Assembly (NCBI GenBank): GCA_030584085.1
Contig: CP129490.1
Location: forward strand, 2,947,511 to 3,011,510
DNA from: Melioribacteraceae bacterium
Lineage (GTDB): Bacteria; Bacteroidota; Ignavibacteria; Ignavibacteriales; Melioribacteraceae
Direction of reading: 5' to 3'
Length of the DNA: 64,000 nt
Every line of letters begins with the position of its first letter. Position 1 is the stretch's first letter. The notes beneath the pieces are model-generated. The model ran no database searches, was not told the DNA's origin, and saw only the letters and a list, made by a program, of their open reading frames with translations. A program made the position numbers and the translations under genes. Shown here in pieces: positions 38,576-55,140 of the stretch.

Positions 38576-40126
38576 TCATTTAAGAGATTTGAATTGTTTT
38601 TGCAGTTTTATCAACCGGTCAACTGCTGCTTTCTTTTCACCTTTTGGTGAACGAAGGATGCCGCCACTTTTCAAGAATCCGTACGGATCAACAAAATCAT
38701 ACCAGTTAGCTGCTTCAATAAATTTTTGTCCATATGCATAAGTGAAAGTATATTCTAGCCAATCACCTTGTAATTCCTCATCCCAATGACGATGCCATTC
38801 GTAAGGATATTGTGAAAAGCTTCCTTCTTCCTTATCAATAAACTCCTGTTTAATTCCGATAGAAGGAGAGCCGACTTCTGCGAGATGAACTATTTTATTA
38901 AATTCTTTATAGCGTTCAATCTGCAAAATTTGATCAGCTGCAGAACGATGAGTAAAATAAACTTGAACACCTACAACATCGAAATCGACACTGGCTTCGA
39001 TAAGCTGTTTAGTAAATTGATGCGGTGTTCGTTGCGGATATTTTGCTTCTATATCATGCCACTTACCTTTTTGAACATAATCACCAAATGGACAGCAGTT
39101 ATTTAACAATAATTGAATGTTTGGATTTGTTTTTCGTGCTGTATCAAAAGCAATTTTAGTAAGTTCTATTGTTTGTTCATGATTAAGCTGCAGTTCGTTT
39201 GCCCAATCATGCATTTCATTTACAACTTCCCATACTTTTATCTTATTACCGTAATGAGAAACTACAGTGTGAACATGGTCTTCAACATACTGTAATAAAT
39301 CCTTGTATGATTTTTTCTTTAGCCAATCAGGTGTAACCCAGGTGTGAACCCAGAAAAGCGGTCTGCCTTCAACAGTTATTCCTTTATCTAAAAGTTTATC
39401 GAGCAGTTCATCACGTTCTCTAAATTGTTTCTTTCCTTCTTGAGGTTCGAAATCAACCACATCACCTTTTAAGTAATGTGTTATGGTTGCGTAATTAAAG
39501 AGTTCGGTGAATCTATCTAAGAAAAGATTCTTATCCATTTGAAAATATCCGCGTGTATCACAGCCGAAGTAGAAATCTTTTCTATAACCAATATTTGCTA
39601 CATCAAATTTTGCTTTTTCTAATTCGAGTAAATCACTTACCCATAAAGCATGTTTTAGTGCTCTTTGTGATTTTACAGCAGTTATATTCCCGTTTGACTC
39701 TTTTGTTTTCTCTGCATCACTTAAATATTCTTGCGAAAGTTCGTGAAGTGTTTTCACTTCTCTCGATGGAATGAATCCTTCACTCAAAAATTTTTGCAGT
39801 CTTTTTTCGTTTCTTTTAACTCTAGTATTAGCTAACTCATAATTCAGATTCAACTCTTTTGATCTAGATTTTTCCAAAGAATAAAACTCACCACCGTTAT
39901 CAGCATTGATAAATAAATATCCATATCCTTCCACATTCCAGCGTAAGTTTATTCCAAACTTTTCAACTCCGGCTGAATCGGTTATTACAATTCCCTCTTT
40001 ATCTAATTTTATATCTGATTTGAAAACATCACCATATTGATCAGTAGCAAATACAAATTCCTCGATGTGCGGACCACGTCCGTTTTGTACAAAGTGTGGT
40101 TTGAATGTTAGCTTTGATTGTGGCAT
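38576..40126 (-). CDS. GH10-like glycoside hydrolase without signal peptide (paralog 2)
   Basis: Same architecture as its neighbours but 516 residues and starting directly at the mature part (MPQSKLTFKPHFVQNG). Acid/base Glu304 (WEVVNE), NNCCPF cysteines and nucleophile Glu417 (HLAEVG) are intact. A TTG start at 40168 would lie inside the four-hairpin repeat and would not provide a signal peptide, so the ATG at 40126 is preferred although it lacks a good ribosome binding site. The Tat signal present in all four sisters is missing; the repeat inserted just upstream may have replaced it. It may now be cytoplasmic or poorly expressed. Confidence 0.78.
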   Translation of the reverse strand: MPQSKLTFKPHFVQNGRGPHIEEFVFATDQYGDVFKSDIKLDKEGIVITDSAGVEKFGINLRWNVEGYGYLFINADNGGEFYSLEKSRSKELNLNYELANTRVKRNEKRLQKFLSEGFIPSREVKTLHELSQEYLSDAEKTKESNGNITAVKSQRALKHALWVSDLLELEKAKFDVANIGYRKDFYFGCDTRGYFQMDKNLFLDRFTELFNYATITHYLKGDVVDFEPQEGKKQFRERDELLDKLLDKGITVEGRPLFWVHTWVTPDWLKKKSYKDLLQYVEDHVHTVVSHYGNKIKVWEVVNEMHDWANELQLNHEQTIELTKIAFDTARKTNPNIQLLLNNCCPFGDYVQKGKWHDIEAKYPQRTPHQFTKQLIEASVDFDVVGVQVYFTHRSAADQILQIERYKEFNKIVHLAEVGSPSIGIKQEFIDKEEGSFSQYPYEWHRHWDEELQGDWLEYTFTYAYGQKFIEAANWYDFVDPYGFLKSGGILRSPKGEKKAAVDRLIKLQKQFKSLK

Positions 40127-40151
40127 AGTTATTAATCTTTTGTTAGTGAAT

Positions 40152-40289
40152 ATTGCCGTCGGTTTCAATCGACGGATTGAGTAATCATTTTAATGTTTGG
40201 CTTTAGCCGTATTGCAAAAACTCGATGGGGCTAAAGCCCATTAATTCTTTTTTTATTCTACTTTTCCGTTCGCTAAAGCGAACGGTAAT
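40152..40289 (+). repeat. Four-hairpin dispersed repeat, copy A
   Basis: A 138-bp element bounded by ATTGCC and GGTAAT with hairpins CCGTCGGTTTCAATCGACGG, GGCTTTAGCC, GGGGCTAAAGCCC and CCGTTCGCTAAAGCGAACGG. It begins 4 nt past the stop of paralog 3 and ends 25 nt before the start of paralog 2. Same orientation as copies B and D. Confidence 0.85.
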
Positions 40290-40293
40290 TTTT

Positions 40294-41997
40294 CTATAAA
40301 CTCTTCCAATACTTTTGCATATTTTTCAATCTATCATAAATTGGTCTAGCAGGGCCTTCGGGGGATTTTAAAAATCCACCGTTATCTATAAATGAATACG
40401 GATCAACAAAATCATACCAATTAATTGCTTCCACCCAATCTTTTGCATAAAAAATTGTATAAATCTGCTCCATCCAATCTGCTTGAAGTTCATCATCCCA
40501 ATGGCGATGCCAAGGATAAGGAAGCTCCGGTATTCCAACTTCACCGGACATGATTGATTCTTTTGTCGGTCCTGCAGTTGTACCAATCTCAGTAATCTGC
40601 ACAGGTCTTCCGTACTTTTTCAATCTTTCGGTCATTCTAATGTTATCGGCTAAGTCGCGATTAGTATATTGGAAATACAACTGCTGTCCGGTTATATCAA
40701 AATCAACTCCGGCTTCGTGACACATTTTTATAAATCTGTGCGGAGTAATTATATCATATCGTTCAGGAACAGTGCTCCAATCCATCAGCTGAACATAATC
40801 AGCTTGGATACAACAGTTGTTTATTAATCGATGAACTTTGGGATTTGTATCCTTTGCTACATCCGCGATAAGTTTTGCAATTTCTACCATTTGATCGGGA
40901 GTTAATTTTAATGGGTTGCCCGGATCATGTGCTTCGTTTATAATTTCCCAAGCGTACATTTCATCACCGTAATGACTTACAACTTCACGAGTGTGTCTTT
41001 CTAAATATTTTAATAGTTCTGGATAGCTTTTCTTCATTATCCAATCGGGCATACAACAATCCGCGGACCAAAATATTGGTCTTCCTTCAACAGTAACTCC
41101 TCGTTTTCTTAATTCTCGAAACTGTTCGTCTCTATCAAGATAAGTGTATTTACCTTCTTCTTTTTCGAATCGTGGTAAGTAGTGTGTTATTGTTGCATAG
41201 TTAAAAATATCACTGAACATATCGAGGAAGTAATCTTTATCCATATGCGGATAACCTTTTGTATCACATCCGATGAAAAAGTCGGAGCGATGTCCGCGAA
41301 GTACAATATCTTTTCTTGCTTTATCGAGTTCGAGCATTTCGCCTCCCCACATCGAATAGTAGAGAGATTTCTGTGATAGCTGTGCTCGTTTCCACTCATC
41401 GGCACTTACTCTTTGTGCATCATGAAAATATTCTTCGCTTAAATCGAGATATGCTTTTACGTCCTTTTCGGGGAAGTAACCTTCTTTCATAAATTGGTTG
41501 TAACGTTCACGGTTTTTAACCAGACGAGATTTTGCCAATTCGAAATTTAAATTATACTGCTTCTCGTTACCGATTGAAGGAAGTTCGTAAAACTCACCGC
41601 CGTTGTCTGCTGTCATATAAATGAAACCGAATCCCTCAACATTCCATCTTACATTGATTCCTATTTTATCTCGCCCTTCGGAGTTTGAAATTTTTACTCC
41701 GTCGGGATATGCAAAAATATTAGAATAGAAAGCATCCCAATTTTCATCACTTGCAAAAGCCCATTGAGGAAATGCCCAGTCTTTTTCACCTAAGGAGTCT
41801 AGCGAATTTACCATTCCATAATGCGGACCGCTTCCATTCTGCACTACGTATGGTTTGAAAACAAGTGTTCCCTGTTCGGTTGATTTTGGAACACGAGGTT
41901 TTGTTAAGATAGTCGGTGCACTAAATAATGAATTTGCTGCGACCAGCCCTCCGACTCCGGCTAACGTAGAATTTCTTATAAAATCTCTTCGCCTCAT
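40294..41997 (-). CDS. GH10-like glycoside hydrolase, Tat-exported (paralog 3)
   Basis: Longest paralog, 567 residues. Tat signal RRRDFIRNS followed by a hydrophobic stretch and SAP. Entry motif VFKPYVVQNG, N-terminal beta domain with NVEGFGFIYMTADNGGEF, GCDTKGY (about 243-249), acid/base Glu355 (WEIINE), LINNCC and nucleophile Glu470 (ITEIG). An extra DCC at about 313-315 is shared with paralog 5. AAGGA lies 5 nt before the ATG, 2 nt after the stop of paralog 4. About 20 extra residues in the N-terminal domain set it apart. Confidence 0.83.
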   Translation of the reverse strand: MRRRDFIRNSTLAGVGGLVAANSLFSAPTILTKPRVPKSTEQGTLVFKPYVVQNGSGPHYGMVNSLDSLGEKDWAFPQWAFASDENWDAFYSNIFAYPDGVKISNSEGRDKIGINVRWNVEGFGFIYMTADNGGEFYELPSIGNEKQYNLNFELAKSRLVKNRERYNQFMKEGYFPEKDVKAYLDLSEEYFHDAQRVSADEWKRAQLSQKSLYYSMWGGEMLELDKARKDIVLRGHRSDFFIGCDTKGYPHMDKDYFLDMFSDIFNYATITHYLPRFEKEEGKYTYLDRDEQFRELRKRGVTVEGRPIFWSADCCMPDWIMKKSYPELLKYLERHTREVVSHYGDEMYAWEIINEAHDPGNPLKLTPDQMVEIAKLIADVAKDTNPKVHRLINNCCIQADYVQLMDWSTVPERYDIITPHRFIKMCHEAGVDFDITGQQLYFQYTNRDLADNIRMTERLKKYGRPVQITEIGTTAGPTKESIMSGEVGIPELPYPWHRHWDDELQADWMEQIYTIFYAKDWVEAINWYDFVDPYSFIDNGGFLKSPEGPARPIYDRLKNMQKYWKSL

Positions 41998-41999
41998 TT

Positions 42000-43661
42000 T
42001 TATCCTTGTTTAGTTCCGAGTGATTTCCATCTTTTTTGCAACTCAATAATTCTGTTATATGATTCTTTCTTTTCTCCATTCGGTGATTCAAGTAAACCAC
42101 CTTCTTTTATCCATGAATAAGGATCAACAAAATCATACCAGTTAACTGCTTCAATCCAAGGTTTGCTGTAAGCTAAAGTATATAATCCTTCAAGCCATTC
42201 AGCTTGTAAATTTTGATCCCAGTGACGATGCCAGATGTATGGTTCATTCGATAATCCAAGTCTTCCATCATTTATTGAAGCTTTTGTTGGACCTGATGAA
42301 GCTCCGACTTCGGTTAATTGAACAGGTCTTCCGAATTGCTCATGTCTTTCAATTAAAATAATTGTGTCTTGAAGATCACGATACGGGAAATACATTTGTT
42401 GACCGGTTATAGTAAAATCAACTCCGGCATCTACTAAATCTTGCATAAATTTAACCGGTGTACGCTGTGGATATTTTGCATCTAGTTCACCCCATTTTTT
42501 AAGTTGAACATATTCCGCAAACGGACAGCAGTTGTTGATTAATCTATGAACATTTGGTGCTGTATCTTTAGCAACATCACAAGCGAGTTTTGTTACTTCA
42601 ACAATTTGATCAGGAGTTAATTGTAATTCATTTGCCCAATCGTGAGCTTCGTTCACAACTTCCCACGCGTACATACCATCACCATAATGTCCTACTACTT
42701 CTTTGGTATGAGATTCAACATATTTTAACAGTTGATCATATGATTTATTTCTTAACCAATCTGGTGTTACTGTGTTATAAAACCAGAAAAGGGGTCTTCC
42801 CTCAACTGTTATATCTTTCTTTCTTAATTCTTTATGAAGTGCCGTTCTTAAATTGAATTGCTTTTTACCTTCGTGTGTTTCGAAGTTCTGATATTTTTCA
42901 CTGATTAAATAATGTGTAATAGTTGCATAGTTGAAAGCTTCCGTAAATAATTCCATGAAAACATCGGGATCCATTTGCAAGTAACCGCGTGCATCACATC
43001 CAACAAAGAAATCGGGGCGATAACCGGTTTTAAGAATTGCAGAGTTTGCTTTTTCTAATTCAAGTTTTTCTCCGGCTACCATTGCATAGTAAAGGGAGTT
43101 TTGTGCTAGCTGCGAAAACTTATATTCGTTGCCAATTGATTTTTTTGAATCCTCTAAAAGCTCTTCTGATAAATCAAGCAGTGATGCAACTTCTCTTGAG
43201 GGTTCAAAATTTCCTTTTCGTTTTCTGTTTCTATAAACTCTGCTCTTTGCCAATTCGTAGTTGAGATTGAGTTCTTTGGTTTTTCCTTTTTCGGGAAGTG
43301 TATAAAACTCTCCTCCGTTATCAGCGGTAATAAATATGTATCCAAAATTTTCTACGTGCCAGCGTACATCGATACCGAATTTTTCTGTTCCTTCAGTATC
43401 ACTTATTACAACACCTTTGTTATCAGAAGTTATATTTGAATGGAAAGCATCCCAGTTATGATCGGAAGCATAAGCCCAATCGAGTAGATGCGGACCTTTG
43501 CCGCTTTGTACAAACACAGGTTTAAAAACCAGTCTTCCTTTCTCTGTGTTGTAATTGGTGCGTTTTGGTGTAAGGACAGTTGGTGCTCCTAGTATAGTTG
43601 AACCGACAGACAAACCGACACCGGTTAACATTGTATTGCGCAGAAAATCTCGTCTTCTCAT
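42000..43661 (-). CDS. GH10-like glycoside hydrolase, Tat-exported (paralog 4)
   Basis: A 553-residue member with Tat signal RRRDFLRNT. VFKPVFVQSG entry motif, GCDARGY (221-227), RPLFWFY, TPDWL, acid/base Glu338 (WEVVNE), NNCCPF and nucleophile Glu451 (LTEVG). It most resembles paralog 2 in these blocks (AEYVQ/GDYVQ and KYPQRTP), suggesting a recent duplication. AAGGA lies 8 nt before the ATG. Copy B of the repeat lies upstream. Confidence 0.83.
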   Translation of the reverse strand: MRRRDFLRNTMLTGVGLSVGSTILGAPTVLTPKRTNYNTEKGRLVFKPVFVQSGKGPHLLDWAYASDHNWDAFHSNITSDNKGVVISDTEGTEKFGIDVRWHVENFGYIFITADNGGEFYTLPEKGKTKELNLNYELAKSRVYRNRKRKGNFEPSREVASLLDLSEELLEDSKKSIGNEYKFSQLAQNSLYYAMVAGEKLELEKANSAILKTGYRPDFFVGCDARGYLQMDPDVFMELFTEAFNYATITHYLISEKYQNFETHEGKKQFNLRTALHKELRKKDITVEGRPLFWFYNTVTPDWLRNKSYDQLLKYVESHTKEVVGHYGDGMYAWEVVNEAHDWANELQLTPDQIVEVTKLACDVAKDTAPNVHRLINNCCPFAEYVQLKKWGELDAKYPQRTPVKFMQDLVDAGVDFTITGQQMYFPYRDLQDTIILIERHEQFGRPVQLTEVGASSGPTKASINDGRLGLSNEPYIWHRHWDQNLQAEWLEGLYTLAYSKPWIEAVNWYDFVDPYSWIKEGGLLESPNGEKKESYNRIIELQKRWKSLGTKQG

Positions 43662-43692
43662 TTTATTTTTCCTTAATGTGTTGTTTGCAGTT

Positions 43693-43829
43693 ATTGCCGT
43701 CGGTTTTAACCGACGGATGCTAATAATTCAAATCACATTTGGCTTTAGCCACATTCTAATTAAGAACTATGGGGCTGAAGCCCATCTACTTTCTCTTTAC
43801 TTTATCCGTCTGCTAAAGCAGACGGCAAT
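43693..43829 (+). repeat. Four-hairpin dispersed repeat, copy B
   Basis: A 137-bp element bounded by ATTGCC and GGCAAT. Hairpins: CCGTCGGTTTTAACCGACGG, GGCTTTAGCC, GGGGCTGAAGCCC and CCGTCTGCTAAAGCAGACGG. It begins 18 nt past the stop of paralog 5 and lies 31 nt before the start of paralog 4. Confidence 0.85.
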
Positions 43830-43847
43830 TCATCAGAAGAATTAATT

Positions 43848-45515
43848 TTATATAAACCTATCAACCACTTTTTTGAATCTATGATACGAGGCTTTCTTTT
43901 CCCCCCTTATATTTTTTAATAGAGCACCGTTCTGCATATAAGAATGCGGCTCAACAAAATCGAACCAGTTGCCGGCTTTTATGTACGGCTTACTGTAGAT
44001 CAATGTATAGATCTGTTCAATCCAATCACCTTGTGTTTCTTCATCCCAATGATGATGCCATAAATATGGTTCTTCAGACGGGAAAGGTTGGTTAGTCATT
44101 TTAACCGAGTACTCAGTTGGTCCGCCCGGGCAACCGATTTCAGAAATGTGCATAGGTTTGCCAAATTCTTCATATCGTTCAATAAGCATAATTGTATCTT
44201 GTAAATCTCTGTACGGGAAATACATTTGCTGTTCGATAATATCTATGTCGATTCCGGCATCTAAAATATCTCTCGTAAACTGCACCGGTGTTCTTTGTGG
44301 ATGTGATGCAGGAGAACCGGAATAACTTTTCATTCCGACATATTCCGCAAAAGGACAGCAGCTATTAATTGTCCTTTTAACCTTAGGAACGGTTTCTTTT
44401 GCAGCGTCTGTTATAATTCCAGTTAGTTCGTTAATCTGTTCATGATCAAGATGAAATTCATTAGCCCAGTCGTGAAGTTCGTTAACCATTTCCCAAGCAT
44501 ACATTTTTTCGCCGTAATGCTTGGTAACTTTTCTTGTGTTTTCATCTACATATTTTAGAAGTTCATCATATTTCATTCCTTGCATCCAATCGGGCATACA
44601 GCAATCATGAAACCAATACATTAATCTTCCCTGTGATTTAATTCCGTGTTCGGCAAGAGTATCAATTAAATGTTCACGGATTGTAAAATTGTGTTTACCC
44701 CGCTGTGGTTCGAAGTCTCTATTTATAGCATTATTACTTTGCGGGACAAAAGTTATGTTGGCATAATTGAACAGCGGAACAAAGTTTTCCAAAAATATAT
44801 CTTGATCCATTTGATAAAATGCTCTTGCATCACAGCCGATAAAGAAATCATTCCTTTTACCCATTCTTGCGATTTCATAATTGGCTTTATCAAGTTCAAT
44901 TTTTTCGGAAGCCCATAATGCATACATCAAACTTTTTTGTGAGAGCTCCGCACATTTTTCTTTATCGTTTTTATACTTTGTTGCATCTTCAAACAGTGTT
45001 TGGGAGAATGCATGTAATCCGGCAGATTCTGTTGATGGCTGCCATCCATTTATCGAGTGAAGTTTTATTCTTCTTTTGTTTCTTGCAACACGACTCTTTG
45101 CAAATTCATATTGCAAAATAAACTCTTGTGATTTCCCTTCCGGTGGAAGTTCATAAAATTCGCCACCATTATCTGCCGTTATGTTTGTATAACCGAATCC
45201 TTCTACATTCCATCTTGCGTTGATTCCGAATTTTTGTTTTCCTTTAGAATCAGAGATTTTAATTCCATCCGGAGCAAGTTCAATATTTGAATAAAACGTA
45301 TCCCAATCTTTATCGGTTGCCCAAACTAAATCGTATAGATGCGGACCCATTCCTTTTTGAACAAACATTGGTTTAAAAATTAATTCACCTCCGAGTGTGC
45401 TTTTCGAAACTCGCGATGAAGTTAAAATAGAAGGGGCAGATAAAATTGAATTTGCTGCAGCGATTGTCCCAATACTTCCGATCAAAGTATTTTTAATGAA
45501 TTTTCTTCTATCCAT
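43848..45515 (-). CDS. GH10-like glycoside hydrolase, Tat-exported (paralog 5)
   Basis: A 555-residue member with Tat-like signal DRRKFIKNT. IFKPMFVQKG entry motif, GCDARAF (227-233), WFHDCCMPDW, acid/base Glu345 (WEMVNE), SCCPF and nucleophile Glu459 (ISEIG). The usual RPLFW is RLMYW here. The start overlaps the stop of the MFS gene by one base (TAATG), so paralog 5 is translationally linked to the transporter and is first of the five to be transcribed. Confidence 0.82.
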   Translation of the reverse strand: MDRRKFIKNTLIGSIGTIAAANSILSAPSILTSSRVSKSTLGGELIFKPMFVQKGMGPHLYDLVWATDKDWDTFYSNIELAPDGIKISDSKGKQKFGINARWNVEGFGYTNITADNGGEFYELPPEGKSQEFILQYEFAKSRVARNKRRIKLHSINGWQPSTESAGLHAFSQTLFEDATKYKNDKEKCAELSQKSLMYALWASEKIELDKANYEIARMGKRNDFFIGCDARAFYQMDQDIFLENFVPLFNYANITFVPQSNNAINRDFEPQRGKHNFTIREHLIDTLAEHGIKSQGRLMYWFHDCCMPDWMQGMKYDELLKYVDENTRKVTKHYGEKMYAWEMVNELHDWANEFHLDHEQINELTGIITDAAKETVPKVKRTINSCCPFAEYVGMKSYSGSPASHPQRTPVQFTRDILDAGIDIDIIEQQMYFPYRDLQDTIMLIERYEEFGKPMHISEIGCPGGPTEYSVKMTNQPFPSEEPYLWHHHWDEETQGDWIEQIYTLIYSKPYIKAGNWFDFVEPHSYMQNGALLKNIRGEKKASYHRFKKVVDRFI

Positions 45516-46792
45516 TATTGACTCAAATTAGTTGTTTGATGAAATCGTGGTTCCTTCATTATGAACAAAAACCAATAAGCAGAAAGAACTGCAAAAAATC
45601 CTGCTAAAACGAAGACCGGAATGTAACCAAACAAATCGGCTAGCCATCCGGCTAAAATTCCGGACAACACGAACGGAACGGTAATTACATTGGTTAATGA
45701 AACATATGTCGATGTTTCTTCTTGAGGTGAAAGTTCTGCGATTATTGTTATTCGCGATACTTGAATTAGTGCAATCGTCATCGCAGAGAAAACAAACACT
45801 GAGTAATAAAGAAATAGCGTCTGACTAATTATTGCGAGCAAACAAGCAATTGCGGTAAACAATGCACCGAAGAAAAGATTAATTCGATGTCCGTACTTAT
45901 CCGCTAAGAACCCGAACAATAGACTAGCAAACACCGTTGCAGTCATCATCACAATTGTAAAATCACCCGCGTAGCCGGAAGTAAGATTAAACTTTTCAAA
46001 CGCGTAAACTGTGTAAAACGCATTTGCCATTCCTGCGAGAATCATCAGAACATCTGCAATCAAATAATTTCGATAGTTTCTTTCATTTTTTAAAATTTGA
46101 GGAAGCCCTTTTAAAAAATCTTTCCAATGAATTGCTTTAGCAACAGTATTGATTTTTTCCTCTTTAATTGATGCTAGAAAGACATAAGAAATCATCATTA
46201 CGACAAAGGCGATTCCAAACAAAAGCGAAAAATTAGCCGGGTACTGCACATTATCGAGAACTTGTTTTGAAGCGTACCCGGCGAAGATACCCATCACAGC
46301 ACCAAGAGTAACTCTGAAAGCAAACAACCTACCACGTATATGAGTCGGAGTAATTTTTGTAAGTAAATCAAACCAAGCGGGCAGATTCATTCCACCACCT
46401 AAAGAAGCAAGTAAAAATCCTATAAAAAAAATGAGCAGCCCTAATTGCGTATCTACTTTATAGATAACAAAAAAACTTAACAATGAAAGAATCAGCCACG
46501 GTATTCTTTGCATAAATGCGGTGAACATTACAATTCTCTTTTTCTCGGAATGTCTTCTCACATAATTTGCTGTAAAAATCTGCGGAAGATGAAAACCGAT
46601 TATCCAGATAACTGGAATTAAACCGACTGCCAAATTTGTACCGCCGATTTTTTTAATGTACACAGGTATTACAGTATTTAAAGCAGCAAAGTTCATAGCA
46701 AATGCAAAAATTGCTCCATCAAAAACGTTTAAAATAAAGTTTCGCTTAACGTTGCCCGACCAATTATAAGAAGGAAGAGAGAATTTACCCAC
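45515..46792 (-). CDS. MFS transporter
   Basis: Inner-membrane permease of 425 residues with about twelve hydrophobic helices and the MFS loop motif GFLADKYGHR between helices. Start is a GTG that overlaps the end of the GH42 gene by 8 nt, with AAGGAGG 12 nt upstream inside that gene. It lies between GH42 and the tandem GH10-like genes, so it probably imports their oligosaccharide products (inference). Confidence 0.83.
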   Translation of the reverse strand: MGKFSLPSYNWSGNVKRNFILNVFDGAIFAFAMNFAALNTVIPVYIKKIGGTNLAVGLIPVIWIIGFHLPQIFTANYVRRHSEKKRIVMFTAFMQRIPWLILSLLSFFVIYKVDTQLGLLIFFIGFLLASLGGGMNLPAWFDLLTKITPTHIRGRLFAFRVTLGAVMGIFAGYASKQVLDNVQYPANFSLLFGIAFVVMMISYVFLASIKEEKINTVAKAIHWKDFLKGLPQILKNERNYRNYLIADVLMILAGMANAFYTVYAFEKFNLTSGYAGDFTIVMMTATVFASLLFGFLADKYGHRINLFFGALFTAIACLLAIISQTLFLYYSVFVFSAMTIALIQVSRITIIAELSPQEETSTYVSLTNVITVPFVLSGILAGWLADLFGYIPVFVLAGFFAVLSAYWFLFIMKEPRFHQTTNLSQ

Positions 46793-48920
46793 AGTAAACC
46801 TTTACCTCCTTAGCTCTCAAACCGAATGAACATGAAACACCGTTATTTGTTTTTGTGAGTTTTAACTTTTCACCGGTAAACTGCTCTGTCAACTCAATTT
46901 CTTTATCATAATTAAAAACAACTTCAGAACTCACTTCTTTCACTTCTTTATTTTGAAGAATGAGCATCAAACTCTTTACGTCTTTCAATGTATCAACTCT
47001 TACCTTAACATCATCTTTTACTTTTGGTTTATTGAGGTCAATTGCATATTCGATTAATGATGGGAAGAGTCTTCCGATTTCATCAATGCCTTTTCTGTGA
47101 TAATTCATTCCGGCATATGAACCGATTTGAATTGCCTTACCTTTACCGTAATTTGAAATAGTGATCGCTGCTTTACCATCTTTAAATTTTGCCAAAGCCT
47201 TTGCACCATTGATTTCAAAAGTTTCTTTAACAAAACTTCCGATTACTTTTGCACCTTTTTTGAGTAACGGTAAATCAGCTGTTAGTTCTATTTCTACATC
47301 GTTGTTATCATCAGCTGGTTCAACATCACGCTGTTTGATTCCAAAAACTTCGTGAAGTCCGTAACCTGGAACTGTTTTTTCGTGATGTCCACCTTCTTTA
47401 TTCCATCCGGCAGTGTAACTTTCGCTTAAAATTACTCCGCCTTTTTCAACCCAAGTTTTAATTTGTTCAGCAATCTTTTTGTTAATTAAATAAGGGAAAG
47501 GAAGAACAAGAACTTTATAGTTATCGAGTTCACCATTTTCAAAGTCTTTCGGATGTAAAAAGTCACTTGTAATGTTTCTTTCATAGAGTGCTTTGTGTAT
47601 TCCTAAAATGGAATCGGTTGCACTTCCTTCTCTGCCGGTTGAAGCCCAAGCAAATACTTGGTTTTCGGGATTATACATAATCGCCACTTCAGCTTTTTCC
47701 GGTTCGCCGTCCATCACTAAATCAACATTTTTATTTAAGACTTTTCCGACTTCGGCATAAGCTTTTAAGTTTGAAGTTTCGTCTCCATCGAGATAAGAAA
47801 GTCCCCATGTTGGGGCTTCTCTTCCGAGAATTTCGGGGCGATACTGCCAAAAGATGAATCCTTTTTGATTACCGGCAACACCGCTGAAAATGAATTTCTT
47901 AATATCATCTGCATCAATTATATCCGGCAAATTAAGTGTGTAGCCGGGAAGCATTAACATTTCAGCGGAGATAACAGGTTTGCCTCTCGCACACGAACGA
48001 AGAATATCAATCATCGCAGCATCATCCATTTGAGTAAAACCGTGCAAGTCGCCGTATTGTCCGACATTCCAAGGATCGCTTGCTGTTGAAGTAACGGGAA
48101 ATCCTTGAATGAAAACGTGATGACACATTAAAGGATGTTTTCCTTTGTCAATCTCTTTTGCTACTTCAAATCTTTTCTTAACATTTTCACCGAGAGTGTA
48201 AACGAAAAACATTCTCCAATCAATCATATCATTGAATGTATTTCTTGTTAACGGAATTTCAGCTTGCTCAAATGATGTATAATTTCTATTCCAGCTTATG
48301 TTTAATTGTTCGATTGAATTATACTTTGTGCTTAACCATTTTTTGAATTTAGTTTTGCAGTTATCACAGAAGCAGAGCATATCGCCCATTTTGTTTAAGT
48401 CGTTTGCATAATCCCGCATCTCTGCCATGCTGCTTGTCAATTCCGGTTCGCTGCCTACATTCCAAATTTCAAGAGCTGGATGATCTTTATATCTTTCTAC
48501 TGATGCTGCCAAGAAATCGAAAAAGTGTTTGCTTACACCATCGTGATTAAAACAGTAACCAAGTCCGCCAATTTGACGATGCGGCTGAGTCTGCGGACCG
48601 ATTTTTCTTCCGCTTAAAGTTACCATCGACGCATCTTCATATTTTTCATAAATCCAAGCCGGAGCAACATCAAAAATTGTATTAAGCATAACCTTTAAGT
48701 TATACTTCCGTGCTAAGTCCATTAACTCATCAATGTCGTCAAAATAATATTCACCTTCAGCTGGATTATTCCATCGCCACTGAATCCAATATTTTATCGT
48801 ATTAAAACCGAGTTCAGACATTCGATTTAAGTCACGATCCCAATCCTCACGATGCGGTGAGGGAGCTCTATAATATTGAGAACCGAATGGAACGTAATTT
48901 CCTTTTATAAGATTTATCAT
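46785..48920 (-). CDS. GH42 beta-galactosidase-like enzyme, cytoplasmic
   Basis: A 711-residue retaining hydrolase without a signal peptide. Catalytic barrel with YWIQWRWNNPAEGEYYFDD (about 44-62), acid/base region EIWNVGSEPE (Glu158 likely), cysteines CFCDNC (183-188) in the place of the GH42 metal cluster, and nucleophile Glu320 (VISAEML). A glutamine-amidotransferase-like trimerisation domain follows (about 410-630, YKVLVLPFPYLINKK). GGAG lies 6 nt before the ATG. It likely splits imported oligosaccharides inside the cell. Confidence 0.85.
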   Translation of the reverse strand: MINLIKGNYVPFGSQYYRAPSPHREDWDRDLNRMSELGFNTIKYWIQWRWNNPAEGEYYFDDIDELMDLARKYNLKVMLNTIFDVAPAWIYEKYEDASMVTLSGRKIGPQTQPHRQIGGLGYCFNHDGVSKHFFDFLAASVERYKDHPALEIWNVGSEPELTSSMAEMRDYANDLNKMGDMLCFCDNCKTKFKKWLSTKYNSIEQLNISWNRNYTSFEQAEIPLTRNTFNDMIDWRMFFVYTLGENVKKRFEVAKEIDKGKHPLMCHHVFIQGFPVTSTASDPWNVGQYGDLHGFTQMDDAAMIDILRSCARGKPVISAEMLMLPGYTLNLPDIIDADDIKKFIFSGVAGNQKGFIFWQYRPEILGREAPTWGLSYLDGDETSNLKAYAEVGKVLNKNVDLVMDGEPEKAEVAIMYNPENQVFAWASTGREGSATDSILGIHKALYERNITSDFLHPKDFENGELDNYKVLVLPFPYLINKKIAEQIKTWVEKGGVILSESYTAGWNKEGGHHEKTVPGYGLHEVFGIKQRDVEPADDNNDVEIELTADLPLLKKGAKVIGSFVKETFEINGAKALAKFKDGKAAITISNYGKGKAIQIGSYAGMNYHRKGIDEIGRLFPSLIEYAIDLNKPKVKDDVKVRVDTLKDVKSLMLILQNKEVKEVSSEVVFNYDKEIELTEQFTGEKLKLTKTNNGVSCSFGLRAKEVKVYCG

Positions 48921-48938
48921 TAATAACTCCGTAAATTT

Positions 48939-49865
48939 TTATATCACAAATTGAGATAAATGTTTGAGTCCTAGCTGCAAACCTTTCTTTGTTTTCTCAA
49001 CCGAACCTTCCCAAACCGGGTCTTCATGCTCGATTGAAAGAACATTATCATATCCTTCTTCTTGTAAAGCTGAGATAAATTTCTGCCAATCTATTTCTCC
49101 CCAGCCTGGCATTCTGTAACGCCACCAGCCGGATTTCCAAGGTGTCGGATCTATTTGTTTTCCGAAGAGACCGTAACTGTAAACTCCGTCATCTAAGATT
49201 TCTGTATCCTTTGCGTGAGCGTGAAATATTTTTGATTTGAATTCTCTTAATGCTGCAATGTGGTCAATGCCGAGCCAGTATAGATGTGAGGGATCAAAGT
49301 TCAATCCGAAATTATCACTCGGTACTTCATTGAATAATGCTTCCCAAAGTTCAGGCGAATATGCATAGTTGCCCGGAAGTCCGAATTGAACCCAGTTTTC
49401 CATCGGACAGTTTTCAATCATTATTTTTCTGCCTTTATCTTCAGCATACTTTAATATGTCACGAAAAACTTCACCGATTTCTTTCATATTTTCCGTCGGT
49501 GTCTTATCGGGTCTGCTTCCGACAAATGTACCGACTAACTCAACATCCAACATTTCTGCAGTATCAATAACTTTTTTAAGATGATTGATGTAGTATTCTC
49601 TTTTCTTTAAATCTGGATGCATGTTATTATCATAATAAGCCATTGCAGAAATTTCCATATTGTTTTCTGTAAATAAATCCTTTACTCTTTTTGCGTCGTC
49701 TTTCGTAAAGTTTGCTGCATCAATTTGTCTAGCTTGATAATCTCTATCACTTTCAACCGGCCAAGCTGCAAGTTCTAGTGTTTGGAATCCGGCATCAGCC
49801 GACCACTTTACCATTTCTTCCAAACTCAAACTCGGGAAACAAGCTGTGATGTAACCTAATTTCAT
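48939..49865 (-). CDS. Sugar phosphate isomerase/epimerase (xylose isomerase-like TIM barrel)
   Basis: A 308-residue AP-endonuclease-2-type barrel. Metal residues are visible in IMIENCPMENW (Glu), NFDPSHLYW (Asp and His), FHAHAKDTE (His) and SIEHED (Glu). GGAG lies 6 nt before the ATG at 49865; a TTG at 49889 was rejected. It follows the Gfo/Idh gene across repeat copy C. Such pairs often epimerise or isomerise keto sugars made by the dehydrogenase. No similarity to IolO beyond the fold is evident. Confidence 0.82.
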   Translation of the reverse strand: MKLGYITACFPSLSLEEMVKWSADAGFQTLELAAWPVESDRDYQARQIDAANFTKDDAKRVKDLFTENNMEISAMAYYDNNMHPDLKKREYYINHLKKVIDTAEMLDVELVGTFVGSRPDKTPTENMKEIGEVFRDILKYAEDKGRKIMIENCPMENWVQFGLPGNYAYSPELWEALFNEVPSDNFGLNFDPSHLYWLGIDHIAALREFKSKIFHAHAKDTEILDDGVYSYGLFGKQIDPTPWKSGWWRYRMPGWGEIDWQKFISALQEEGYDNVLSIEHEDPVWEGSVEKTKKGLQLGLKHLSQFVI

Positions 49866-49906
49866 TTTATACTCCGTTTTATTTTTCAATTCAAGTATTT
49901 CAATTT

Positions 49907-50046
49907 ATTGCCGTCTGCTTCAGCAGACGGTATCAGTGATAACTGTAAACTTTCAGGGCTTCAGACCCATATACTTTTAAACAATGTGGCTAAAGCCAAA
50001 ACCAAGGATAATTCTTTGTAACCCGTCGGTTAAAACCGACGGCAAT
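49907..50046 (-). repeat. Four-hairpin dispersed repeat, copy C
   Basis: A 140-bp element in the opposite orientation to the other three. Read on the minus strand: CCGTCGGTTTTAACCGACGG, GGCTTTAGCC, GGGTCTGAAGCCC and CCGTCTGCTGAAGCAGACGG, bounded by ATTGCC and GGCAAT. It begins 3 nt past the stop of the Gfo/Idh gene. Confidence 0.85.
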
Positions 50047-50049
50047 TTT

Positions 50050-51207
50050 TTAGACTTCAATCCACATTTGTTCTTTATTACTTTTTAGAATTGCTTCTAC
50101 AATTTTGTTTTCAATGTGTCCGTCCGCGAATGTGGGGAAATCCGATTTTTCTTTTTGCGGATCTTTTCCCTCGCGAATGAATTGATAGAAGTTTGCAAAT
50201 AAATTTTTTGGTCCATCAGGATAACCTTCAGGATGTCCGCCGGGATAACTCGCATACTTTCTTACACTCTCGTCAATCAACGCAGGGTCTTTAATAAGTA
50301 TTTCATTTGGTTTCTCTCGATAACCAACCCACATTTCATTCGGTCTTTCTTGATTCCAAGAGATTGCTTTTTTACTTCCGTCAATATCAAAACTAAAATG
50401 ATTTTTTCTTCCCGCACTAACTTGCGAAACAGTGAAAACTCCTTGAGTTCCGTTTTCAAATTGGATTAAAACGGAACCGGCATCTTCCGTATTGATTTCA
50501 ATTTCTTGATACTCGGTTGAACCGAGTTCTTCCTTCCCCTTAAATGTTGCTACTTGTTTTGTAGGTTTTTTTCGTTTCTTGTGAATCGTTACCAAATTTG
50601 CGAAGACACGTGTAATTTTTTGTCCAGTTACAAATTGAACAGTATCACACCAATGCGAACCAACATCAGCAATTGCGCGTGAAGTACCACTCAACTCGGT
50701 CTCCAATCTCCAATTGTAATCGGTATCGTAGTAAAGCCAATCCTGTAAATAATTTCCGTGAACTAAATAAATATCGCCGAGATTTCCTTTTTCAATCTCA
50801 ACTCGTGCGTTCTGCACCAACGGATAAAATCTATAATTGAAGTTGATTCCGTTGACTACATTTTTCCTTTTCAATAGTGCTAAAAGTTGATCAGATTCAT
50901 TTGCAGTAAGAGTTAACGGTTTTTCAGAAAGAATATGTTTGCCTGCTTCGATTGCAGCTTTATTTATTTCAAAGTGAAGAAAGTTAGGAGTACAGTTATG
51001 TATTACTTCAACTTCATCATCATTCATTAATTCTTGCCAATCTTTATAATACTTTGGAATATCATATTTTGATTGTAATTCACTTGCACCGGTTTTATCA
51101 TCGGAAGCAATTGCAACAACATCAACTCCACCGATTCTCTGCAGTGCTTCGATGTGCGCACCGCCCATAAATCCCGAACCGATAACCGCTGTTTTAATAC
51201 GTTTCAT
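50050..51207 (-). CDS. Gfo/Idh/MocA family oxidoreductase
   Basis: NAD(P)-dependent sugar oxidoreductase of 385 residues. Rossmann GSGFMGGAH at the N-terminus, SEKPLTL with the catalytic-region Lys, and ADVGSHWCDTVQF with the expected His. The C-terminal part carries a long GGHPEGYPDGPKNLFANFYQ stretch seen in larger members of this family. AAGGAG lies 5 nt before the ATG. It lies 2 nt from the unassigned glycosidase-like gene upstream. Substrate not assignable. Confidence 0.85.
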   Translation of the reverse strand: MKRIKTAVIGSGFMGGAHIEALQRIGGVDVVAIASDDKTGASELQSKYDIPKYYKDWQELMNDDEVEVIHNCTPNFLHFEINKAAIEAGKHILSEKPLTLTANESDQLLALLKRKNVVNGINFNYRFYPLVQNARVEIEKGNLGDIYLVHGNYLQDWLYYDTDYNWRLETELSGTSRAIADVGSHWCDTVQFVTGQKITRVFANLVTIHKKRKKPTKQVATFKGKEELGSTEYQEIEINTEDAGSVLIQFENGTQGVFTVSQVSAGRKNHFSFDIDGSKKAISWNQERPNEMWVGYREKPNEILIKDPALIDESVRKYASYPGGHPEGYPDGPKNLFANFYQFIREGKDPQKEKSDFPTFADGHIENKIVEAILKSNKEQMWIEV

Positions 51208-51209
51208 AA

Positions 51210-52874
51210 TTACTCCTTGTTTAATCTTTTTGCTCTTTCAATCATCTTGCGAGTTTCAGGTGTATCCATTTCTTGTTCATAGCTATAGAGACTTAATGAC
51301 GGAATGACATTCAACTTTGCATATGATTCCTCCTGCAGTTTGAACATCGGATCGGATGTGTGTTTGGTTAAAAGATGCGCCATAAACTTTGTGTAATCAC
51401 CAAACAAATAAGATGAAATTGGATGAACGTTTCGCCATTGAACTCTGTCATCCATTCCATGAACTTCGGCAATACTGTCAATGCCATGAATTTGAACAAC
51501 CGGCAGTCTCGGCAGAACTCTTTCGTTAATACCTTCTCCAGCAAAAAGTACCCTTGGGAATTCTTCTTGCAATCGTTTAATATGATCGTGCATTCCTTGA
51601 ATAAAATTCGGTCCTCGATTATTGTTAAATGCAAGCAGTGTTTGATCGACAAATACTGCATCGAGTTTATACTTGTTAATTAAATCTCCGAGAACTTTAG
51701 TCATCAAATCTCCCCATTCATTGTAACCTGGATTCATATAAGCAAAGAAAGGTTCGGGCAGCCAATCACCATCGATATCTAATCCCCAAGTAAGTTCTCG
51801 TCCCCATGGATCGGTTGTTGTAAACTTTTTGTATTCTTCATACAAAGGATGAACAAAAGTCATTGCCAAAATATTTGTGTGAATCATTACTTTATAGCCG
51901 AGTCTATGTGCAGTATCTACAAGAACTTTGAATTTTTCAGGTCCACCACATTGTTCACTTGGATCATAGTTTGGAGCATTTGAATCAACTCCGTTCTGAG
52001 CATAGCCGGGCAAGTATAGCAAAGTTTGATTTGGATCGTGTAGTTTTTTCCAATCATGAAGTCGGTCAACTATTTGATCAAATGTATGATGAGCTTTAGT
52101 TCCTTTTCTTGCTCCCCAAGGTTCAAGAATAAAATTTATATTTTCCATCCACTCGGGATAATGTGGATGTTTTTTGTAATCAACCAAGTTGAAATTTTCC
52201 TTCATCCATTTCTTGTGAATATTAACACCACATTTCCAATCACCTTCAAATACTTCTATAAAAAATTCATATTCAAGATGATTGGAATTAAGGGGAGCTG
52301 CGGCTTCGTGTCCGAATGTAATTTCAAAATTATTTTTAGTTTTACTTACTCTTAACAATTTTAATTCGTTTGATTTATCTTCAGACCGGAAAATTAATCC
52401 ACCATTTATAGTTTTGCCGATTACAAACTGTGAATTCCACCAGAAAGGATATTTGTATGAAAGAGTTTTCCCTTTCGGCATATCCTTGCTGATTGATTGA
52501 CCGCCCAAAGCAGGAACCAATACTTCGTCAAAATCAAATCCATTTAACTTCCACTCCACTAACCAAATCGGGCGTGGTGCCTCGACTTTAACTTTAACCA
52601 ACACACCTTTGTTTGATTTAAAAAATTCCACGATCGCTGAATATTCTTTGCCTTCATCCGCAAAATAGAACTGAATTGAATTTTCGTTTTTCTCAATTGA
52701 CTTAACTTTTTGAAGCACTGCCGGATCTGAAACTGCATTGTGAGTTCTAATGATAATAGATTGCTCACCATTGGCACAAACCTTTGTGCTTTCTTTTAAA
52801 ATAAAAAGACCATCAATTGAAAAGTCTTCTGCAAAATCGATTCGCAATGAATCTGACTGAATGTTTGTCCTCAT
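51210..52874 (-). CDS. Glycosidase-like TIM-barrel protein of uncertain family
   Basis: A 554-residue cytoplasmic protein I cannot place in a numbered family. The N-terminal 210 residues look like a beta-sandwich (repeated strands, VEWKLNGFDFDEVLVPALGG). From about 215 a barrel follows: LYLPGYAQNGVDSNAPNYDP, GYKVMIHTN, FAYMNPGYNEWGD, LDAVFVDQT (candidate catalytic Asp) and RVLFAGEGINE (candidate Glu). The layout recalls GH36/GH31-clan or DUF6259-type proteins. It lies between the Gfo/Idh and ureidoglycolate lyase-like genes. Start ATG has only a weak ribosome binding site. Confidence 0.6.
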   Translation of the reverse strand: MRTNIQSDSLRIDFAEDFSIDGLFILKESTKVCANGEQSIIIRTHNAVSDPAVLQKVKSIEKNENSIQFYFADEGKEYSAIVEFFKSNKGVLVKVKVEAPRPIWLVEWKLNGFDFDEVLVPALGGQSISKDMPKGKTLSYKYPFWWNSQFVIGKTINGGLIFRSEDKSNELKLLRVSKTKNNFEITFGHEAAAPLNSNHLEYEFFIEVFEGDWKCGVNIHKKWMKENFNLVDYKKHPHYPEWMENINFILEPWGARKGTKAHHTFDQIVDRLHDWKKLHDPNQTLLYLPGYAQNGVDSNAPNYDPSEQCGGPEKFKVLVDTAHRLGYKVMIHTNILAMTFVHPLYEEYKKFTTTDPWGRELTWGLDIDGDWLPEPFFAYMNPGYNEWGDLMTKVLGDLINKYKLDAVFVDQTLLAFNNNRGPNFIQGMHDHIKRLQEEFPRVLFAGEGINERVLPRLPVVQIHGIDSIAEVHGMDDRVQWRNVHPISSYLFGDYTKFMAHLLTKHTSDPMFKLQEESYAKLNVIPSLSLYSYEQEMDTPETRKMIERAKRLNKE

Positions 52875-52892
52875 ATTAACCGTAATTGTTTT

Positions 52893-53363
52893 TCAAAATT
52901 GAAGTTCGATTTCTTTTATATCTTTTTTGTAAACGTCTTCGTTAGGTGTTCCTTTTTTAAATATCACAAAGTAAGATGATTCTTCTTTTCCAACTGGCAG
53001 ACATGCTCCGTGCCAAACTGCTTTATCGATTACTACAGCTTCACCGATATCAACTTGAAATGCCTCAGATTGTTCTTCGGCTTCGCCTTCTTTTAATAAC
53101 GGAAGAACAAACGGCGCATCAATCGGAATTAAAATTTCGGGAGTGTCAAGATGCCGCTCCATTCCGTTTATAATACTTTTCGGTTGTTTGTAAACCGTAC
53201 ATATCCCGATTTCTGTTGCTCCATCAATTTCATAATTTGCAATATCCGACCAAAATTTGAAATCCGTGGCCTGTGCTGTCGGTTCACCTTTGGGTGACTT
53301 AACTACCTTACCGAATTTTATGAAGTTGTCTTCGGTTATTGGTTTTGAGTTTATTGTAATCAT
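52893..53363 (-). CDS. Ureidoglycolate lyase-like cupin
   Basis: A 156-residue protein with the AllA-type opening ITEDNFIKFGKVV, a MERH motif, and VVIDKAVWHGACLPVG near the C-terminus. AllA proteins release glyoxylate from ureidoglycolate, but many homologs sit in sugar-acid clusters with unknown substrates, and no allantoin genes are near. An ATG at 53402 would add 13 residues but is part of the adjacent hairpin repeat (GGGGGATGAG), so the ATG at 53363 is preferred. Confidence 0.65.
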   Translation of the reverse strand: MITINSKPITEDNFIKFGKVVKSPKGEPTAQATDFKFWSDIANYEIDGATEIGICTVYKQPKSIINGMERHLDTPEILIPIDAPFVLPLLKEGEAEEQSEAFQVDIGEAVVIDKAVWHGACLPVGKEESSYFVIFKKGTPNEDVYKKDIKEIELQF

Positions 53364-53397
53364 AATTCTTTGTAATCTATTTAACTTATTAAAATAA

Positions 53398-53456
53398 CTC
53401 ATCCCCCTTTCATTCCCCCTTCTCTTACAAAGAGAAGGAGGACACAGGGGGTTGAG
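53398..53456. repeat. Two-tier hairpin repeat (CTCA-CCCCC type)
   Basis: Outer arms CTCATCCCCCT and AGGGGGTTGAG pair at 10 of 11 positions; the inner arms CCTTCTCTT and AGAGAAGG enclose ACAA. It lies 8 nt past the stop of the GH-A lipoprotein gene and supplies a false upstream ATG for the next gene. Confidence 0.65.
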
Positions 53457-53464
53457 TTTAACAA

Positions 53465-54922
53465 TTATTTCTTAATTTCCATCACTGCTATTTTTCCGCC
53501 TTCAAGAGTTACATTTTTTACAACAGTTTGATTATCGGATTTTTCGATAGATGTAAATTCACTGCCTTCACCAAGTTCGTTGTAAAGTGTCCCTGTTCCC
53601 GTTAAAGCTGACGGGATTGTGTAACTAACTGTTTCTACGCGGGTATCTTTAACCATTCCGGTTTTGTCGTCCGTTCTCTTATCATATTGAACAGTTTGCA
53701 GCCAAGCAAATAAAATCACATCACCGTTTTCTCTTTCGAATGCAACGTAACGACTGTCACTTTTTTCATCTGCACTTGATACCACACTTTCACCGATACT
53801 CTTTATAGGATCAGCGAACAATTCATTTACAAAGATCAATGCTTGGTTTGCCGGTTTGGGTGAATGATCTGCCCAGGCAATACCAAGGTGTTTGTTATTA
53901 TAAATATCACCAATTACTTCATCACTCGGTGGTAAGTCCTTTATTTCATACCAAGCCATTGCATCTATTTGTCCGGTCGAGCGAACAAGAGCAATTCTTT
54001 TAACAATATCAACAGCTTGATAATTTGGGGTGTGTTCATATTCATAATATGCTGTATAGGAATCTGACACCATAGATCCTTGACGGAAAGTACTGTAACC
54101 GACTTCAGCCATCCAAATTGGTTGGTTGTTGCCATATTTGGCAACTACATTATATACATCGTTTACATAGCTTGTAATTTCTTCAACAGGATTTTTATGC
54201 CAGGTCTCAAAATAGTTATGGCAATTTACTATATCGACATAAGGACTTAATCCATGATCTTCAAAAAGTGATTGAATCCATTCGGGTCTATAAGCAATTC
54301 CACCCAAAACAATTTTAGCTTCGGGGTCAGCTTTTCTAACAGCATCGGCTCCAATTTTATGAAACTCTGCAAATTGTCCGACATCTTGAGTTCTCCAGTA
54401 AATCCATATATCGGGTTCGTTCCAAAGCTCCCAAGTTTTGATCCATTTTTTATAACGTGTAGTAAGGTCGAACATGAACTCTCCCCATTCTTCCATATCA
54501 ACCGGCGGGATATTCCAATATAATGCTGAGTCAACTGGTTCGGTTGAATTCCAGGCGGGAGTATAGCAAACATAAGGTATCATTGTAATACCGTATTCTT
54601 CAACACCGGTTTTTACGAAGTCATCCCAAAAGAGCCAATCGTATTTATCTTTTTCATATTCGATTGCATCCCATCCGAATGATATTCGCAAATATTTTAT
54701 GCCGGATCTTTTCAACAATTCAAAATCATTTACATAAATATCTCGAGTAGTTGTTTCTTCAGGCCAGTCTTCACATAGTCCAAGCGGCATTGTGTAATAA
54801 GCTGTGTTGTTCTTTACGGTTAATTCACCGTACATCAACTTATCTTGAATTGCTTTTTCTTCGTCGGGCGCGCATGCGAAGAGAAGCATTCCGGTTAAAA
54901 TGATTAATAATATTTTTTTCAT
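53465..54922 (-). CDS. Clan GH-A glycoside hydrolase lipoprotein (GH39-like)
   Basis: A 485-residue lipoprotein (lipobox LLFAC, Cys17). Retaining clan GH-A barrel with acid/base Glu169 (WELWNEPD) and nucleophile Glu273 (IWMAEVGYS), joined by an IVLGGIAY segment typical of GH39/GH5-like enzymes, and a C-terminal beta domain (about 380-485). GGAG lies 6 nt before the ATG. Surface anchoring suggests it works on chains held near the cell. The exact family number is uncertain. Confidence 0.78.
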   Translation of the reverse strand: MKKILLIILTGMLLFACAPDEEKAIQDKLMYGELTVKNNTAYYTMPLGLCEDWPEETTTRDIYVNDFELLKRSGIKYLRISFGWDAIEYEKDKYDWLFWDDFVKTGVEEYGITMIPYVCYTPAWNSTEPVDSALYWNIPPVDMEEWGEFMFDLTTRYKKWIKTWELWNEPDIWIYWRTQDVGQFAEFHKIGADAVRKADPEAKIVLGGIAYRPEWIQSLFEDHGLSPYVDIVNCHNYFETWHKNPVEEITSYVNDVYNVVAKYGNNQPIWMAEVGYSTFRQGSMVSDSYTAYYEYEHTPNYQAVDIVKRIALVRSTGQIDAMAWYEIKDLPPSDEVIGDIYNNKHLGIAWADHSPKPANQALIFVNELFADPIKSIGESVVSSADEKSDSRYVAFERENGDVILFAWLQTVQYDKRTDDKTGMVKDTRVETVSYTIPSALTGTGTLYNELGEGSEFTSIEKSDNQTVVKNVTLEGGKIAVMEIKK

Positions 54923-55005
54923 TGTTTTCTCCGTTTTGTATTTGATTGAAACTTTTGTGATTTCTTAATATTTGTGTCCACTTCTATGTGTGTTGCATAC
55001 TTTTT

Positions 55006-55140
55006 TTTGCCCCGACTTTTAAGTCGGAGATTAAGATTGCCAACTTATCTCTGGGCTTTAGCCCCATCCTTGGCATTTAATGGGACTAAAGTCCGTATAG
55101 TTTGTTGCTATTTCCCCCGTTCACTAAATTGAACGGCAAT
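55006..55140 (+). repeat. Four-hairpin dispersed repeat, copy D
   Basis: The most diverged copy, about 135 bp, ending GGCAAT. Hairpins: CCGACTTTTAAGTCGG, GGGCTTTAGCCC, GGGACTAAAGTCC and CCGTTCACTAAATTGAACGG. Stem changes are matched on both sides relative to other copies. It begins 26 nt past the stop of the aldo/keto reductase gene. Between it and the lipoprotein start (54923-55005) I saw only A/T-rich leader. Confidence 0.75.

Follow-up and report, generated by a model that had tools for sequence, protein, structure and literature searches.

The closest described systems pair a Y1 transposase with palindromic DNA in different ways. In Escherichia coli and Pseudomonas, repetitive extragenic palindromes (REPs, with the related REPINs and BIMEs) and their REP-associated tyrosine transposase (RAYT, or TnpA_REP) form a system of short palindromic units that often stand as inverted intergenic pairs. 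IS200/IS605 elements such as IS608 and ISDra2 combine an HUH/Y1 enzyme with hairpins at their ends and a TTAC-type target, and palindrome-associated transposable elements (PATEs), from archaea, are derivatives of these that resemble miniature inverted-repeat transposable elements (MITEs). Two further groups are the TIRYT genes and TIRtrons, in whose description (Di Nocera et al. 2013, PMC3733652) non-GTAG inverted repeats border Y1 genes and occur as scattered copies, some being doubly palindromic, and subclass 1.2 of the TnpA_Y1 transposases, found in Bacteroidetes and relatives, with the Y motif Y---Q--HH, the motifs DH[IV]H and WQ and a median length of 148 amino acids, which the passages of Quentin et al. 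(2018, PMC6006769) that concern it present as lacking REPs, generally lacking typical terminal structures and not sharing insertion sequence (IS) properties. Here we analyse a repeat family in a 64,000-nucleotide stretch of the genome of a Melioribacteraceae bacterium (contig CP129490.1, positions 2,947,511 to 3,011,510; hereafter the window), whose four copies are, judging from sequence comparison, probably gene-less derivatives of a small single-strand transposable element with the complete form A-B-tnpA-B'-A', that is, a transposase gene between inverted two-hairpin units.

The original prediction had proposed four copies of about 138 bp, one of them inverted, with complementary ends, four hairpins and matched stem changes. 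All four are present where it placed them, and c3 aligns with the other three on the minus strand; the bit scores below come from model R1, which was trained on c1-c4 themselves.

40152-40289, plus strand: copy c1, A-B-B'-A', with A at 40156-40175, B at 40199-40208, B' at 40229-40238 and A' at 40266-40285 (136 bits, R1)
43693-43829, plus strand: copy c2, A-B-B'-A', with A at 43697-43716, B at 43741-43750, B' at 43773-43782 and A' at 43806-43825 (144 bits, R1)
49907-50046, minus strand: copy c3, A-B-B'-A' when read on this strand, with outer hairpins at 49911-49930 and 50023-50042 and inner palindromes at 49957-49966 and 49988-49997 (135 bits, R1)
55006-55140, plus strand: copy c4, A-B-B'-A', with A at 55010-55029, B at 55054-55063, B' at 55084-55093 and A' at 55117-55136 (130 bits, R1)

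The predicted ends ATTGCC and GGCAAT are exact in c2 and c3, but the right end of c1 reads GGTAAT and the left end of c4 TTTGCC. The three matched changes (TTCG/CGAA, TCTG/CAGA and TTCA/TGAA) are present in the sequence, and A and A', the outer hairpins, each form an 8-bp stem of their own, but the inner palindromes pair together into one longer stem when any of the four copies is folded. We therefore replaced the architecture of four separate hairpins by two inverted two-hairpin units: each copy is more fittingly described as a 62-nt unit and its inverted counterpart, the unit consisting of a foot (ATTG), a hairpin A with a variable 8-bp stem and a loop that is usually TTTA or TTCA, roughly 26 nt and a palindrome B with the core GGCTTTAGCC. 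Some A hairpins, both in this genome (G000; L073:4899-4981) and in the relative G007 (L175-L178), have some 20 nt inserted in the loop, and this insert consists of small palindromes (CCC..GGG, GGC..GCC).

When places related to the copies were read across the whole genome (3,742,376 bp in one contig), 22 units turned up, and a model of the unit trained on 20 of them gave 22 matches there at E values up to 0.01, at least 21 of them seen among the matches listed. The 22 units form 11 inverted pairs. Five have their A hairpins outwards (A-B-B'-A', A-out), namely the four window copies and one at genome positions 650398-650557, and six have them inwards (B'-A'-A-B, A-in), near 108, 647, 942, 1196, 2127 and 3167 kb. 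The A-in pairs may be joints of arrays, because one locus in the relative G001 reads A-B, B'-A' (a partial match), A-B, tnpA, B'-A', A-B. The flanks of the pair at 647 kb (L073 near 1856-2002) match different contigs in G001 and in the congener G002, possibly reflecting a rearrangement point or contig breaks.

The stems of these units co-vary, and both pairing and covariation lie beyond all shuffled and slid versions. Two of this genome's units, one whose loop A carries a long insert and one that lacks stem A, were set aside; in the other 20, standard pairs fill 92.5% of 240 pair cells compared to 76.5% in shuffles, and the covariation score is 0.457 compared to 0.155 in shuffles (none of 500 reaches 0.457) and at most 0.093 when partners are slid. 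Kinship alone can lift sequences above shuffles without any structure, so the slid controls weigh more; the 16 further pair types are nothing unusual, as 120 of the 500 shuffles reach that number. Across other genomes, 108 distinct units are 95.7% paired, with a covariation of 0.630 compared to 0.171, and 147 further distinct units (from the best 150 of 264) are 96.7% paired, with 0.679 compared to 0.159, values that are biased towards the model because both alignments were fitted to it; helix A is 97-98% paired in these two sets. Model searches together with the shuffled and slid controls rule out chance repeats.

The stem letters themselves are diverse, with 146 different 8-mers among the 364 A stems analysed (taken from 443 rows, of which 79 did not fit a simple stem parser, and with some loci counted twice), and their 2912 pairs contain 63 G-T, 45 A-C and 60 other mismatches. 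The loop is TTTA or TTCA in 346 of these stems; the foot is ATTG in 211 of the 364 units, ATAG in 51 and TTTG in 19, and GTAG is not among the 12 commonest.

Instead of structural selection, such matched changes could have been caused by templated repair, in which one arm of an imperfect palindrome is copied from the other in replication; this would cover the covariation but not the origin of the element. It agrees with stems that are almost wholly Watson-Crick, with the rarity of mismatched intermediates and with several adjacent pairs changing together; recognition by a hairpin-binding transposase predicts the same pattern, however, and foot, loop and B are more conserved while the stem letters drift. 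We hold this explanation of the covariation to be possible, if rather doubtful.

The original prediction also offered selection on structure as RNA. In such a reading the hairpins would act in operon mRNA as a stabiliser, an attenuator or a control of the next gene. In its favour, all four copies lie between same-strand genes, at 3-26 bp from the preceding stop codon and 25-83 bp from the following ATG (for the genes left of c1 and c3, the ATG starts at 40126 and 49865 were assigned by eye). RNA stems, however, are expected to show G-U steps, and these near-perfect stems have few of them, roughly 1.5-2% of the paired stem cells (16 of 786 in the 108-unit set, 17 of 1146 in the 147-unit set). 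A-C mismatches are also nearly as common as G-T in the A stems, a contrast that is blurred by units occurring in both orientations, and no Rfam family matches at its gathering score within the window.

We searched 20 related genomes for Y1 transposases (PF01797) and obtained 80 matches in 15 of them, of which 63 were used as loci (the 17 unused being mostly the weakest) and 58 proteins entered a tree, five broken or short ones being left out. One clade of nine (support 100/96) coincides with the set that has strong flanking units, on both sides within 700 bp in eight of the nine (in L120 with only 21.9 bits on one side) and downstream only in the ninth (L067). None of the other 49 has a unit above 22.1 bits within that distance, and four of them have a single weak one (17.8-22.1 bits). 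Relative to the gene, the nearest units are + upstream and − downstream in six of the nine, which gives A-B-tnpA-B'-A', and a copy with a broken gene in the relative G015 (L140) has the same order; complete and gene-less forms have the same ends.

A further sample consists of the best 80 of 560 loci with homology to the clade and is hence biased towards it, with at least three (L255, L283 and L294) already used above. Any unit was found in 73 of the 80, a unit at most 150 bp from the gene in 71 and units on both sides in 45, of which 35 have the (+,−) order; upstream units are + in 50 cases and − in 9, downstream units − in 53 and + in 4. These loci include records of Melioribacteraceae, Pedobacter, Mucilaginibacter, Flavobacterium, Salinimicrobium and Maribellus, and ten genomes reached through such loci contain 13 to 81 unit matches each, with at most 150 candidates scored per genome. 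A sister clade of six, which includes a gene of this genome (1267302-1267718), has two-hairpin flanks too, with TTTA or TTCA loops, and the architecture is therefore broader than one clade. Among the other 33 tree proteins with Y---Q--HH, any such hairpin occurs at 12 loci, and 2 of 26 hairpins have these loops.

Proteins of the unit-flanked (cognate) clade are 141-163 amino acids long, and all nine keep the two HUH histidines, the tyrosine and the Q--HH that comes after it. The signature Y---Q--HH is shared by all nine, by all six sister proteins and by 48 of the 58 in the tree, whereas DH[IV]H is found in five of the nine (the others having EHIH, EHVH or DHLH) and WQ in six (the others having WA). 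One cognate protein matches PF01797 with 96 bits, and the two of the nine tested with the following models pass that of IS200/IS605 (66.8 and 73.4 bits, cut-off 55) and fail the NCBIfam model of REP-associated tyrosine transposases (41.2 and 29.4 bits, cut-off 80). Their best solved relatives by sequence are IS200-type transposases, for example that of ISHp608; 2xm3 is presumably the structure of the ISDra2 transposase.

As in RAYT/REP systems, the units flank a low-copy Y1 gene, occur elsewhere in the genome without the gene and form mostly inverted pairs. Unlike REPs, their commonest foot is ATTG rather than GTAG, each has two hairpins and the stem letters vary widely within one genome, and the two enzymes tested fall below the REP-transposase cut-off. 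A REP-associated transposase, which the original prediction proposed to look for, thus has its counterpart in a Y1 gene flanked by units, but not in the REP model or the REP foot. IS200/IS605 elements (IS608, ISDra2) share the HUH/Y1 enzyme, hairpins at the ends and the closest solved structures by sequence, but the ends here are symmetric inverted two-hairpin units. By description only, the copies also resemble PATEs, as non-autonomous forms that keep IS200-type ends, and, likewise by description and not by sequence, TIRYT/TIRtrons, as Y1 genes with non-GTAG inverted flanks and scattered copies (PMC3733652). REPs tagged by CGTC were set aside: they are described as having an unpaired motif for a tag and no dedicated transposase, while similar letters here lie inside a stem. 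As for the B palindrome in print, the only REP paper among the matches listed was PMC2817692, where, in the part matched, the palindrome's letters form part of an H. influenzae REP with a GTAG tag. The pairing of such units with these transposases was not found in the main texts of the open-access literature searched.

Kinship with subclass 1.2, judged by motifs and not by the published profile, is suggested by Y---Q--HH in nine of nine, by lengths of 141-163 amino acids compared to a median of 148 and by occurrence in Bacteroidetes and relatives, with DH[IV]H and WQ kept partly (PMC6006769). Two clades with the signature nevertheless have two-hairpin flanks here, which contradicts the subclass as described in the relevant passages of that survey more than it does the kinship. 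We lean slightly towards the wider view that subclass 1.2, in at least two clades, comprises widespread single-strand transposases of Bacteroidota whose ends would be inverted two-hairpin units recognised by shape, foot and loop, not by stem sequence, with stems that drift in matched pairs and gene-less copies that fill intergenic gaps. This offers ends, and so testable substrates, for a group of HUH transposases described in a large survey as without them, and ties these enzymes to a class of repeats that many Bacteroidota carry. If recognition does go by shape and leaves the stem letters free, it would set these elements apart from sequence-tagged REP systems and would mean that matched stem changes in bacterial repeats need not imply an RNA function.

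For the proposed element, the Y1 enzyme would bind the folded unit on single-stranded DNA and cut near the ATTG foot, and the DNA between two outward units would be moved, with or without the gene. The stem would be free to drift as long as its arms match, because shape, foot and loop would matter more than its letters.

Junctions in relatives bear on how the copies arrived. At c4, c3, c2 and c1 the intergenic distance is 244, 184, 186 and 167 bp in this genome and 37, 14, 4 and −25 bp (an overlap) in G005, a collinear outgroup of the same family but another genus, in which the compared genes are in the same order. The window junctions hold extra DNA relative to this outgroup, with the evidence for insertion extending to c1 and c2. 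In the relative G017, where only c4 and c3 are comparable as the order of the glycoside hydrolase 10 (GH10) genes differs, the junctions measure 39 bp and 101 bp, the latter with a palindrome of its own. The original suggestion of a non-autonomous element mobilised in trans fits well with these near gapless outgroup junctions and with the same ends flanking a Y1 gene in relatives. The two complete copies in G015, one of which has a broken gene, match at 90% identity along 667 bp; left of the ATTG foot their DNA is unrelated. This gives one left boundary, at the foot, that bears on insertion beside a fixed short target without target duplication; a blastn search for plasmid copies of one complete locus of the relative G019 gave none.

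The congener G002 (84-91% alike) has junctions of 212, 171, 176 and 138 bp at c4, c3, c2 and c1, which hold the same repeat family with different stems at c4 and three other repeat kinds at c3, c2 and c1. Such replacement at three of four sites speaks against the RNA explanation. More in line with it, the G001 ortholog of c2 differs at 3 of 137 positions whereas the neighbouring coding stretches are 87-88% identical (binomial P about 3 × 10−5 at 12%), so that c2 is more conserved than adjacent coding sequence, which could reflect function or recent exchange. Weighing both sides, we consider RNA elements kept by selection on their structure very unlikely, and selection on structure as RNA is not favoured. 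The slots of c1-c3, with other repeats in G002 (L160) and near gapless in G005, point to few tolerated slots or a shared preference. At the G002 ortholog of the 650-kb site (L304:3800-4261) there is an insert with a PDDEXK_3 gene (PF13366, 146.7 bits) and ATCTGTG-type border repeats that resemble, by eye, the G002 repeats at c3, perhaps another pair of gene-bearing and gene-less elements.

Several observations weigh against reading the copies as a Y1-moved element. Transposition itself we infer from sequence, and neither excision nor insertion was seen. This genome yielded no cognate transposase, a search with one cognate protein giving nothing closer than the 40%-identical sister enzyme (1267302-1267718), and the relatives G007 (81% complete) and G008 (99%) carry nine and eight units with no Y1 match at the thresholds used. 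Six of the 11 pairs in this genome have the A-in order; unless they are fragments of arrays, this is not what a simple A-B-B'-A' element predicts. Among the loci, L124 lies outside the clade and has a strong unit pair 1.7 kb from its gene, the flanking units of L063 face the other way, L118 has its nearest units at distances of 246 and 478 bp, and a unit within 150 bp is missing from 9 of the 80 homologous loci. Hairpins also occur near Y1 genes without Y---Q--HH, 13 of them at three of five loci, 7 with TTTA or TTCA loops, which shows that such a loop is not specific by itself (five more such genes have no such hairpins). In G015, the similarity continues beyond A' on the right, which leaves the left boundary as the only clear one.

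The five Y1 genes of this genome were rejected as cognates, as none has a strong unit nearby (the best scoring 21.1 and 17.8 bits), and the nearest kin, 1267302-1267718, has two-hairpin flanks of its own. The copies of this genome are probably orphans, moved by an enzyme since lost or by one acting in trans, for example that of 1267302-1267718. Two other Y1 genes, L069 and L071 (348612 and 3728963), have their own repeated palindromes nearby (CCCGAAGGGG-like, CAACCGC..GCGGTTG).

A different enzyme altogether is invoked if copies of this genus spread as cargo of a MITE with the terminal repeat GAGTCTGTTGCA, moved by another, probably DDE, transposase with the units as passengers. This, too, counts against the Y1 reading: among the 39 A-out pairs read in relatives (fetched loci only), 10 have the repeat at 10/12 or better on at least one side, namely four G007 copies and six pairs in G001 and G017. 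Five pairs have it on both sides, four of these with a matching 4-bp duplication (TTCG, TTAA, TTCA, CGAA), and four such copies in G007, a genome of another genus, match c4 at 91-95% identity along about 120 bp. A second kind of packaging is seen in G019, where four A-out copies (L191-L194) lie within another, longer repeat that they share and that begins near TTACGCAAAATATTA. The other 29 of the 39 pairs, however, have no GAGTCTGTTGCA repeat, nor do c1-c3 and the 650-kb copy, and c4 has 9/12 on one side only; the bordering of a transposase gene by units is also left unexplained. We therefore regard this origin as unlikely, although some copies do stand beside GAGTCTGTTGCA, four with 4-bp duplications, and part of the spread would therefore be by hitchhiking with another enzyme. 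The target-site duplications that the original prediction had proposed to look for are thus present in some relatives' copies inside MITEs and absent from the window copies, at which neither the terminal inverted repeats of this MITE nor a target duplication was found. Two possible relics lie outside c4.

54986-54997, plus strand: possible relic of the MITE terminal repeat (9/12 with GAGTCTGTTGCA), just outside c4; a weak match, as 48 of 3000 random 45-mers reach at least 9/12
54976-54990, plus strand: outside c4, possibly what remains of an earlier A hairpin, recognisable only when aligned with G002 (by eye)

Four of the 11 pairs lie within 15 kb, which 15 of 200000 simulations with uniform placement reach, so that the clustering of the four A-out copies in one operon is unlikely to be chance under such placement. 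Recent local hopping was rejected as the cause, as the 73% likeness of c2 and c3 does not exceed the 78% between c2 and a copy in G001. Tandem gene duplication carrying the repeats was rejected as well, since c3 and c4 are outside the GH10 paralogs and the paralog junction at 41997/42000 has no repeat. These paralogs stand in tandem at 38576-45515 of the window, in a gene cluster that holds the repeats, and the four tested match PF00331.

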